Source: Rhizobium oryzihabitans
GTDB taxonomy: Bacteria; Pseudomonadota; Alphaproteobacteria; Rhizobiales; Rhizobiaceae
Assembly (NCBI RefSeq): GCF_010669145.1
Contig: NZ_CP048632.1
Span: 2,934,501-2,998,500 of the forward strand
Reading direction: 5' to 3'
Length of the DNA stretch: 64,000 bases
Shown here: positions 15,913 through 51,407 of the stretch, piece by piece
How positions within the stretch are numbered: the stretch's first letter is position 1
Layout of the letters: every line of letters begins with the position of its first letter
Position numbers and translations under genes: made by a program
The notes under the pieces: generated by a model
The model's database searches: none
Told to the model about the DNA's origin: nothing
Seen by the model: the letters and a program-made list of their open reading frames with translations, nothing else

Positions 15913-16189
15913 CCTGTTTCCTCCCCCCAAAAAAACGTGGCCGCAGGGTCGCAACAATTGTTTACGGTCGCGTTAAAGCGCTTGAGAATTGTATGATTAT
16001 TTCCCGCATACCGCGAGAAAATCGCCCCTCGCTGCCGCACAGTAAACCGTAATAAAACTGCAATAGAACGGGCGCATACCGTGCGAAGTTCAACGGCTGT
16101 TCATATTCATGCAAGCTTTTCGCGCTCCTTCTCCTGCCACTATCGACGATGTTTGCGGCACACGCGCAGACGGATATGACGGAGCCCCT

Positions 16190-48583: not shown

Positions 48584-48706
48584 ATGCCAAAATCAGAACT
48601 GAGCCGACTATATCAGAAGACGACAGCGAAATGCCAGCAAATTTGAGACGGGCATATTTCTCCATTCATTCAGGGCCTTAACTGATAAGATTGACATTTT
48701 TCAATA

Positions 48707-48721
48707 GAACATATAGTGAAC
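48707..48721 (+). promoter_or_regulatory. LexA (SOS) box at the rSAM-UdgX operon start
   Basis: GAACATATAGTGAAC is an exact GAAC-N7-GAAC direct repeat, the alphaproteobacterial LexA operator (GTTC-N7-GTTC read on the other strand). It ends directly at the ATG of the radical SAM gene and overlaps a TATAGT -10-like box with TTGACA at 48691-48696 (15-base spacer). Repressor binding here would block the promoter, so the operon is predicted to be DNA-damage inducible. Confidence 0.8.
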
Positions 48722-49960
48722 ATGGCCATGAAGAAGTCAATCAGGCAACGGCTGGCCATTCTCTCCGATGCGGCCAAATACGATGCGTCCTGTGCCTCCA
48801 GCGGCACGACGAAACGCAGCTCTGCAGCTTCCGGCGGACTTGGGTCCACAGAGGGGTCCGGCATCTGCCATGCCTATGCACCGGATGGGCGCTGCATTTC
48901 GCTCCTGAAGATCCTGCTCACCAATTTCTGCATCTATGATTGCGCCTATTGCATCAACCGTTCCTCCAGCAATGTGGAGCGGGCGCGGTTTACCGCCGAG
49001 GAGGTGGTGTGGCTGACGCTGGAGTTCTACCGGCGCAATTATATCGAAGGGCTATTTCTCTCCTCCGGCATCATCCGCTCGTCTGATCACACAATGGAAG
49101 AGATGGTGCGGGTGGCGCGGGAACTGCGTGTCACGCATGGTTTTCGCGGCTATATACATCTGAAATCCATTCCGGAAGCATCGCCAAAGCTGATTGAGGA
49201 AGCGGGGCTTTACGCCGACCGGCTGTCGATCAATATCGAATTGCCGACCGATAGCGGCGTCAGCCTTTTTGCGCCGGAAAAGCAACCCGCCAATATTCGC
49301 CGCTCGATGGCCGATATCCGCTTGAAGATTGAGGAGGCGGGGGAACCAACCGTCAGAACGCGAAAGACCAAACGCTTTGCGCCTGCCGGACAGAGTACGC
49401 AGATGATCGTGGGGGCGGATGGGGCTGATGACAGCACCATTCTTTCCACCAGCGCCCGGCTTTATGGCAGCTATGGTTTGCGGCGTGTCTATTATTCGGC
49501 GTTCAGCCCCATTCCGGATTCCTCCAAAAACCTGCCGCTTATCAAGCCGCCCTTGATGCGCGAGCACAGGCTTTATCAGGCGGACTGGCTCTATCGTTTT
49601 TACGGCTTCGACATTGGTGAAATAACCGCGATCGGCGGAGACGGCATGCTCGATCTCGATATCGACCCGAAGCTTGCCTGGGCGCTCAAAAATCGCGACC
49701 GTTTTCCGGTGGACGTCAATGCCGGGGATCGAGAAATGTTGCTGCGCGTACCCGGCTTCGGCACCAAGACGGTCTCTTCAGTCCTGTCATCGCGCCGGTT
49801 TCGGCGGTTGCGGCTGGAGGATATCGCCCGCTTCGGCGTTTCGCTGAAAAAGGTGAAGGCCTTCATTGTTGCCGAAGGCTGGACGCCGGGCAAACTGACC
49901 GAGCGCCCGGATCTGCGGGCGATGTTTGCCCCGCAGCCCGAACAATTATCGCTACTGTGA
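48722..49960 (+). CDS. Putative DNA modification/repair radical SAM protein
   Basis: A 412-residue radical SAM enzyme of the family always paired with DUF4130/UdgX proteins (TIGR03916 type). The [4Fe-4S] cysteines are in NFCIYDCAYC (CxxxCxxC, about 71-78), AKYDASCASSG is near the N-terminus, and a helix-hairpin-helix DNA-binding motif (LRVPGFGTKTVSSVLSSRR) is near residue 340. This suggests action on a DNA base lesion, possibly like spore photoproduct lyase; no reaction is known to me. ATG 48722 follows the LexA box with no leader room for a ribosome site, so the mRNA may be nearly leaderless. Its stop overlaps the next start (TGATG). Confidence 0.88.
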   Translation: MAMKKSIRQRLAILSDAAKYDASCASSGTTKRSSAASGGLGSTEGSGICHAYAPDGRCISLLKILLTNFCIYDCAYCINRSSSNVERARFTAEEVVWLTLEFYRRNYIEGLFLSSGIIRSSDHTMEEMVRVARELRVTHGFRGYIHLKSIPEASPKLIEEAGLYADRLSINIELPTDSGVSLFAPEKQPANIRRSMADIRLKIEEAGEPTVRTRKTKRFAPAGQSTQMIVGADGADDSTILSTSARLYGSYGLRRVYYSAFSPIPDSSKNLPLIKPPLMREHRLYQADWLYRFYGFDIGEITAIGGDGMLDLDIDPKLAWALKNRDRFPVDVNAGDREMLLRVPGFGTKTVSSVLSSRRFRRLRLEDIARFGVSLKKVKAFIVAEGWTPGKLTERPDLRAMFAPQPEQLSLL

Positions 49961-51407
49961 TGTATGGCCCGGTTCTGGAAGGGCGGGGTGATTTCGGCGA
50001 GTGGCGTGATGCGGCACGTGCCGCGCTCGCCGCGGATGTGCCGCCGGAAGCGATTGACTGGCGGCTGCGGGATGAGGGGGCCGGGTTTCTCGATTTTGCC
50101 GGAGAGCCGTTGCCCGTGTCCGGTGCAGGGGGCGCGCAGGTGTCCGTTCCGGCCTCTTTCGTGGCTTTGGCGCAAGCCATTATCTGTCACAGTGATCCAG
50201 GCCGTTTCGCACTGCTTTACCGGCTGCTGTGGCGGCTGAAGCGGGATCGCGCGCTCTTGCAATTCAAGTCCGATGCGGATGTTTCCGAAGCCCGGCGGCT
50301 TGAAAAATCCGTTCGCCGCGATTGTCACAAGATGACGGCCTTCGTTCGCTTCAAGGAAATACCCTTGCCGCAGGGGCAGGGCGGGCGGCGGCGCTTCGTC
50401 GCATGGTTCGAGCCGGATCACTTCATCGTCGAGCGCACAGCGCCGTTTTTCCAGCGGCGGTTTACCGATATGGACTGGCTGATCGCCACGCCGAACGGCT
50501 CCGCGCAGTGGGACGGACACGTGCTGAAGACATCGCGGCAGGCGGCGCCGAAGCCTGAACTGACGGATGAGACGGACGAGCTCTGGCGGACCTATTATGC
50601 CAACATATTCAATCCGGCGCGTCTGAAGATAAAGGCGATGACGGCGGAGATGCCGAAGAAATACTGGAAGAACCTGCCCGAAGCCGACCTTATTCCCGGT
50701 CTCGTTCTGGGGCCGAGGCGCGGGTGCTGGAAATGGCGGCAAAGGCGGCAAGCCAGCCGCAACCGTTTCACCATCGCCTGCAGGCTGCAGCCTCGGCGCG
50801 GGAAGAGCCGCAACCGGTGCCGGACGGCACGTTCGCCTCGCTGGCGCGGGAGGCTGGCCAATGCACGCGGTGCGCCTTGCATTGCAAGGCAACGCAGACG
50901 GTCTTCGGTCAGGGGCCGGAGAATGCGAAGGTCATGATCGTCGGCGAACAGCCGGGTGATCACGAGGATTTGGCCGGACAACCTTTCGTCGGTCCCGCCG
51001 GCCAGCTGTTCAACCGGACGCTGGCTGAAACCGGCATTGACCGCAAAAAGCTTTATGTCACCAATGCCGTCAAACACTTCAAATATGAGGCCCGCGGCAA
51101 ACGGCGCATTCACCAGCGGCCGGATGCGGGCGAAGTGCAGCAATGTCGCTGGTGGCTTAACCAGGAAATTGCGCTGGTGCGACCGAAGCTCATCGTTGCC
51201 ATGGGCGCCACGGCGCTTTACGCGCTGACCGGCGGCAAGGAAAAGGTCTCTGATGTCCGAGGCCGCCCGATACCGATGCAGGAGGAGCGGACGCTCTTTG
51301 TCACGGTGCACCCATCCTATCTTCTTCGCCTTCCCGATTCGCAGCAAAAGGATGCGGAAATGCAGAATTTCAGGAATGAAATTGAGTTTATAAGGTTATT
51401 TGAATAG
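49960..51407 (+). pseudogene. udgX: DUF4130 - UdgX uracil-DNA-binding fusion protein, frameshifted
   Basis: Two pieces of one 482-residue protein. The N-terminal DUF4130 part (49960 to about 50709) runs through FALLYRLLWRLKRD and ends its family sequence at PKKYWKNLPEADLIPGL. The UDG-superfamily part continues in the +1 frame: CTRCALHC (Fe-S), GEQPGDHEDLAGQPFVGPAG (active-site loop), KRRIHQRP (UdgX R-loop with the His that bonds covalently to DNA after uracil removal) and HPSYLLR. Restoring one G in the G4 run 50709-50712 fuses them exactly. A sequencing deletion is likelier than decay. It is co-translated with the radical SAM gene and under the same SOS box. Confidence 0.85.

Follow-up and report, generated by a model that had tools for sequence, protein, structure and literature searches.

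We analysed a window of 64,000 nucleotides of the Rhizobium oryzihabitans genome (contig NZ_CP048632.1; host genome of 5.86 Mb), which carries an operon encoding, in this order, a radical SAM (S-adenosylmethionine) protein, a DUF4130 protein and a UdgX domain. All three score above the curated NCBIfam cut-offs, and the coordinates below are positions in this window. SOS control of the operon is strongly supported by the sequence, because an exact LexA box is present in 140 of 140 alphaproteobacterial loci and because 24 of 29 loci from other Pseudomonadota carry a box of the Escherichia coli type (exact or with one mismatch). The core of the operon appears to be the radical SAM protein plus DUF4130, since DUF4130 accompanies the radical SAM protein in each of 84 genomes, whereas 21 of these 84 have no UdgX above its cut-off; UdgX is thus optional and would be an accessory. 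That the operon is LexA-repressed, induced by DNA damage and devoted to processing base lesions, with a two-protein radical SAM enzyme as its core, has in our estimate about an even chance of being right. The module is already known in databases and is biochemically unsolved, and the locus itself is not new; what this analysis adds is the constant pair, a set of extra cysteines in the radical SAM protein and a linkage to a translesion cassette.

The LexA box and its conservation

The box, GAACATATAGTGAAC, lies on the forward strand at 48707-48721 and matches GAAC-N7-GAAC exactly, as the initial annotation had reported; it was found both by reading the sequence and by pattern match. According to that annotation it ends at the ATG of the radical SAM gene. 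An ATG (48722) does stand directly 3' of the box, but the relatives start at the equivalent of the ATG at 48728. A chance match has on its side that some two occurrences of the pattern are to be expected in 64,000 nucleotides (2 exact matches for 2.13 expected, so that the pattern alone is not significant) and that it occurs 206 times genome-wide, against 98 for the reversed control. The weight of the box rests on position and conservation, not on the pattern alone. The second exact match in the window (16088-16102, minus strand) lies just before a gene at 16109 that looks glycosyltransferase-like by eye.

Among 199 Rhizobiaceae genomes, 91 have the radical SAM family above the cut-off; the analysis covered each of these 91 loci, among them that of the window. 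Every one has a box upstream of the radical SAM gene (90 GAAC-N7-GAAC and one GTTC-N7-GTTC). Over the same loci other GAAC spacings gave 0-3 matches, and shuffles gave 0.375 on average and 2 at most. The box is also present in 47/47 loci of other alphaproteobacterial families drawn from the phylum, and in both of two further Rhizobiaceae genomes from that draw, which brings the alphaproteobacterial total to 140. The 135 proteins longer than 300 aa from the first 136 loci fall into 101 clusters at 90 % identity, 35 at 80 % and 15 at 75 %, and within every cluster all members have the box. The 60 bases that precede the box are 27 % identical on average (123 loci with a close forward box). Shuffles, spacing controls and the divergence of these 60 bases rule out chance as the origin of the box. 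Absence of the box upstream of orthologous operons had been named beforehand as refuting SOS control; in this survey the box stands at all 140 alphaproteobacterial loci, and SOS control was not refuted.

A survey of named records, which partly overlaps the 140-locus set so that the counts are not additive, covered 81 loci with an anchor, 80 on genome contigs and one on a viral contig (a second viral locus had no anchor), and found the box at 77 of them. Of the four others, two are alphaproteobacterial and show, by eye, a variant that differs in one letter; one is from Xanthomonas; and one, from Acidovorax, shows by eye a box of the E. coli type that is likewise changed in one letter. At the 29 non-alphaproteobacterial loci of the phylum draw the alphaproteobacterial box is absent (0/29); 19 have an exact CTGT-N8-ACAG box of the E. 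coli type, a further 5 match it except at one position, and the remaining 5 show neither type. The type of box at the operon differs between lineages. Elsewhere in the host genome the alphaproteobacterial motif also precedes a LexA gene and lies between ssb and uvrA (lexA and uvrA were scored on pieces, with scores below the whole-protein cut-offs), and recA has a one-letter variant of it.

Layout of the operon and frame break in this genome

All features of the operon are on the plus strand. A possible promoter, read tentatively from the sequence (48691-48717), would consist of TTGACA (48691-48696) and of TATAGT within the LexA box (48712-48717), with a spacing of 15; a promoter scan demanding a spacing of 16-18 did not report this pair. 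The radical SAM gene (TIGR03916, 410 aa) extends from 48728 to 49960, its start being set by the relatives. It shares a TGATG overlap (49958-49962), already pointed out in the initial annotation, with the DUF4130 frame (TIGR03915; 49960-50937), in which the domain itself covers 49984-50685 and the remainder lies beyond a frame break. The UdgX domain (TIGR03914) occupies 50724-51407 in the other frame, and has the motifs GEQPGD (50943) and HPSYLLR (51309) as well as the KRRIH loop (51099-51113) already noted in the initial annotation.

A single DUF4130-UdgX protein had been described at this locus, which is not what we find. The DUF4130 frame ends at 50937, whereas UdgX is read in a different frame that stays open between about 50571 and 51407; the break itself falls within 50686-50724. 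In the same genus, where a match was found in 35 of 38 other genomes and 29 loci were compared, the motifs of DUF4130 and UdgX stand in one open frame at 29/29 loci, the genome of the window being the sole exception. A programmed frameshift is ruled out by this confinement of the break to one genome among the same-genus loci compared. In comparisons with three relatives the ratio of nonsynonymous to synonymous substitution rates (dN/dS) is 0.13-0.16 for the UdgX piece, close to the 0.08-0.11 of DUF4130, so that the break is either recent or an assembly or sequencing error. If the assembly is right, UdgX would not be made as a DUF4130 fusion in this strain. It could then be that the operon is decaying in this one copy and has lost UdgX by a real frameshift rather than through an error. 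The uniqueness of the break within the genus speaks for such a loss and the dN/dS values of the UdgX piece against it; we give it somewhat less than an even chance. The other elements first described at the locus, i.e. the box, the radical SAM protein, the overlap, DUF4130 and the UdgX loop, are all there. As to how the locus had been interpreted, SOS control is retained as a prediction, the fusion in this genome is given up, and UdgX is not the core.

Genes associated with the radical SAM family

Co-occurrence was scored with the family cut-offs in 398 Pseudomonadota genomes, as raw genome counts in which kinship is ignored. The radical SAM family is above its cut-off in 84 of these genomes, DUF4130 in 87 and UdgX in 78. 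All 84 radical SAM genomes have DUF4130 and 63 have UdgX; 15 further genomes have UdgX but lack the radical SAM protein. Of the 21 radical SAM genomes without UdgX above the cut-off, 20 have no UDG (uracil-DNA glycosylase) domain in the stretch examined, whereas in one (G576, locus L199) a UDG-like domain is fused but scores too low for the cut-off. Among the control genomes, that of Caulobacter vibrioides gave matches to all three families, which for the radical SAM protein and UdgX may lie below the cut-offs. At 165 loci, for which the length of the stretch varied and some contigs ended within it, the neighbours are DUF4130 and UDG in one frame (132), the two in separate frames (2, the window and L157), DUF4130 alone (22) or neither (9). 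Among the radical SAM genes without DUF4130 in the stretch examined are L171, L172 and the Rhizobiaceae loci L044, L070, L104, L109 and L116; in the genomes of L171 and L172 (G422 and G434) DUF4130 is found about 3 kb further on. In records from Bacteroides, Spirosoma and Acinetobacter (the last filed as phage) the annotated neighbour is TIGR03915 or a "probable DNA metabolism protein", and no UdgX is annotated adjacent to it.

These counts bear on the possibility that capture of uracil or abasic sites by UdgX is the central activity, the radical SAM protein and DUF4130 serving UdgX, e.g. by preparing the site or by undoing the crosslink. The fusion of UdgX to DUF4130 at the 132 loci agrees with this, as does the conservation of all UdgX motifs. 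But UdgX is missing from a quarter of the radical SAM genomes (21/84), nearly always together with any UDG domain in the stretch, and it occurs without the radical SAM/DUF4130 pair in 15 others; an operon built around UdgX is therefore unlikely, and UdgX as a general core is ruled out.

A phage or defence function was also considered and rejected. None of the three proteins matched a PADLOC anti-phage model, and PHROGs gave only a weak match to the radical SAM domain and UDG-like matches. Some records deserve comment as to their filing. L341 (CAKLQH020000003.1), named as an Acinetobacter phage, has bacterial housekeeping genes (glyS, glyQ, aidB) beside the operon and is probably a misfiled chromosome contig. 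Ten phage records have radical SAM matches; of the two inspected, one, L341, is bacterial in content and the other carries no annotation. A scan of viral contigs gave 2 loci, one of which (L304) was used as a row of one alignment and in the named box count. L338 and L339 (Fusobacterium vincentii and Acetoanaerobium noterae; 2.1 and 2.6 Mb) are filed as plasmids and have the length of chromosomes.

The radical SAM protein, DUF4130 and UdgX

The radical SAM protein scores 563.3 bits with TIGR03916 (NCBIfam cut-off 343.5) and is 97-98 % identical to its best named Agrobacterium matches. The CxxxCxxC motif of the radical SAM cluster, part of the first description of the locus, is present (C68, C72 and C75; 48929-48952). 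The protein has six cysteines in all, the three others being C22, C47 and C56, whose codons lie within 48791-48895. From alignments and comparison with relatives, all six are invariant in a 15-row and a 62-row alignment and are kept in ten further rows (nine genomes, Bacteroidota and Fusobacteriota included) and in one Bacillota relative. A Gemmatirosa relative (Gemmatimonadota, L340), 36 % identical, is without the three extra cysteines (one sequence), and a simple motif search recognised no DUF4130 beside it. The helix-hairpin-helix (HhH) attributed to the protein is borne out in part: a stretch of this kind near the C-terminus (49739-49822) is suggested by weak PDB matches to ComEA and RuvA within residues 256-370, but the Pfam HHH family PF14520 is listed for 5 of 120 relatives, among the matches listed, and not for the protein of the window. 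A profile comparison with solved sequences gave weak matches throughout, the nearest being to a radical SAM core like that of ThiH/HydE (best E 0.0041) and to HhH proteins.

An enzyme that directly reverses a UV lesion, in the manner of the photoproduct lyase SplB, would also combine radical SAM chemistry with control by DNA damage, and a separate splB is predicted to be SOS-regulated in the accessible part of PMC3323433. However, no photoproduct-lyase family or chain was found among the NCBIfam matches (E 0.01) or the PDB sequence matches (E 1), so that the sequence gives a photoproduct lyase no support, and DUF4130, always present, would be superfluous for a one-protein lyase. We regard this reading as improbable.

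The extra cysteines invite another explanation, that they hold an open-site cluster donating sulfur or carbon to a base, the operon tagging DNA rather than repairing it. C22, C47 and C56 precede the CxxxCxxC motif, and methylthiotransferases are likewise marked by three N-terminal cysteines ahead of it. But no methylthiotransferase family matched the protein in NCBIfam, and LexA control and the linkage to imu genes described below favour damage processing, which makes DNA modification distinctly unlikely.

DUF4130 scores 217.9 bits with TIGR03915 (cut-off 112.25) and 135.8 bits with PF13566 (cut-off 27); the PDB search returned no convincing solved relative. In a 71-row alignment H77, D105, H123, R130, E151, R167 and D203 are invariant, among others. 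When six distant neighbours, taken as DUF4130 by their position, are compared, only R130, F131, P152, F164, R167, I175, R221 and P232 hold. The UdgX domain scores 330.5 bits with TIGR03914 (cut-off 189.95), and the nearest matches in the PDB are structures of UdgX. According to the accessible text of PMC10359453, which also names the KRRIH loop, UdgX removes uracil and forms a covalent bond with the abasic DNA that results.

Linkage to the imuA-imuB-dnaE2 translesion cassette

DnaE2 (NF004225) was searched in the same 398 genomes, 170 of which have it above the cut-off. In at least 12 of the 84 radical SAM genomes no more than 3 kb separates it from the radical SAM gene: in seven, all of one family, on the opposite strand with a gap of 2.4-2.6 kb, and in five, of another family, on the same strand with a gap of 1.5-1.6 kb. 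Among the matches listed, a DnaE2 match printed as E = 0 is found in 72 of the 84. In the named records ImuA, ImuB or DnaE2 occurs in the flank of 12/80 loci; seven of these, all Sphingomonadales or Erythrobacteraceae by title, have ImuB before and DnaE2 after the operon. At L221 an ImuB-like gene precedes the operon and the start of DnaE2 follows immediately, and at L169 an ImuB-like gene and an ImuA match (38.7 bits, below the cut-off) are divergent from the operon. The operon is flanked by imuB on one side and dnaE2 on the other at L221, L266, L281, L282, L286, L288, L291 and L292, and at L169 it is divergent from imuA-imuB. At L158-L161, L165, L166 and L169, where ImuA/ImuB are divergent, the box is in the GTTC orientation about 136 bases before the anchor; one operator may perhaps be common to both divergent operons at these loci.

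A predicted lesion-processing enzyme

In the mechanism that we propose, LexA would repress the operon and DNA damage would induce it. The radical SAM protein and DUF4130 would form one enzyme, and the HhH-like end of the former together with DUF4130 might hold the damaged DNA. The CxxxCxxC cluster would make a 5'-deoxyadenosyl radical, which would convert or reverse a base lesion met during SOS replication, while C22, C47 and C56 could bind a second Fe-S cluster or provide a hydrogen donor. Where present, UdgX may play an accessory part, trapping uracil or abasic sites covalently where the same replication stalls or is error-prone.

Several observations weigh against this mechanism. Five of the non-alphaproteobacterial loci (L142, L190 and L191-L193) have neither type of box, and none of five box types tried was found at any of seven loci from collections of plasmids and phages (L336-L342), which include single loci of Bacteroidota, Fusobacteriota and Bacillota. 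The pairing counts of the radical SAM protein with DUF4130 ignore kinship, three DUF4130 genomes are without the radical SAM protein, and seven Rhizobiaceae loci and two others have no DUF4130 in the stretch examined. DUF4130 itself has no known fold or activity. As for the translesion linkage, it is not general, because imu genes adjoin the operon in none of the 91 Rhizobiaceae stretches (many flanks being shorter than 1.5 kb) and because, among the matches listed, a DnaE2 match printed as E = 0 is lacking for 12 of the 84 genomes with the radical SAM protein.

A bolder form of the proposal is a new class of two-protein DNA-lesion enzyme with two Fe-S clusters, acting beside translesion synthesis by ImuA-ImuB-DnaE2 on a lesion for which no reversing enzyme is known; UdgX would be a covalent guard of uracil or abasic sites. 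We advance it tentatively, as possible and rather more likely wrong than right. The question has some reach, as about a fifth of the Pseudomonadota genomes sampled (84/398) have the radical SAM family. SOS control, a fixed partner and the translesion link would narrow it to a few knock-out and lesion assays, and with DUF4130 rather than UdgX as the constant partner the choice of proteins for co-purification changes.

Comparison with known systems

The literature searched, which left most subscription papers outside its reach, contains no assigned reaction for the radical SAM family, COG4277 or DUF4130, in agreement with the initial annotation, which had called the reaction of the radical SAM partner and of DUF4130 undescribed. 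In NCBIfam the three proteins correspond to the module TIGR03916/TIGR03915/TIGR03914 (putative DNA modification/repair radical SAM protein, putative DNA repair protein and UdgX), whose order is the same and whose cut-offs are passed; the window differs from it in having DUF4130 and UdgX in different frames. We take COG4277 to be the TIGR03916 radical SAM family.

SOS control of this type of operon is not new, because it is already in print: in its accessible part, PMC8565304 reports, for the SOS networks of Bacteroidetes, a base excision repair operon made up of the two genes COG1573 and COG4277, and states that SOS regulation of such a UDG plus COG4277 system has been reported for Verrucomicrobia and Alphaproteobacteria. 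As here, a UDG and a partner gene are under LexA control; the motifs given there are mainly those of Bacteroidetes, and that part of the text leaves DUF4130 unmentioned. Other accessible texts describe the LexA motif of alphaproteobacteria, together with the predicted SOS regulation of a separate splB in alpha- and betaproteobacteria (PMC3323433), the LexA motif of Caulobacter (PMC9578287, PMC12700426), and a Streptomyces LexA regulon that includes a radical SAM protein, of a family unstated in that text (PMC9380542).

Spore photoproduct lyase SplB is likewise a radical SAM protein tied to DNA damage and SOS (PMC3323433 and PMC8565304, accessible parts), but it was not matched by the proteins of the window among the NCBIfam and PDB results. 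The imuA-imuB-dnaE2 SOS mutasome cassette, reported as LexA-controlled in the same parts of these two sources, is joined to the operon in some lineages but does not adjoin it in the 91 Rhizobiaceae stretches, the window's included. Finally, the UdgX of Mycobacterium (PDB 6ail and others) has GEQPGD, the KRRIH loop and the HPS motif in common with the domain of the window. Its solved chains are of about 205-229 aa, whereas in the relatives of the window operon UdgX is fused to DUF4130.

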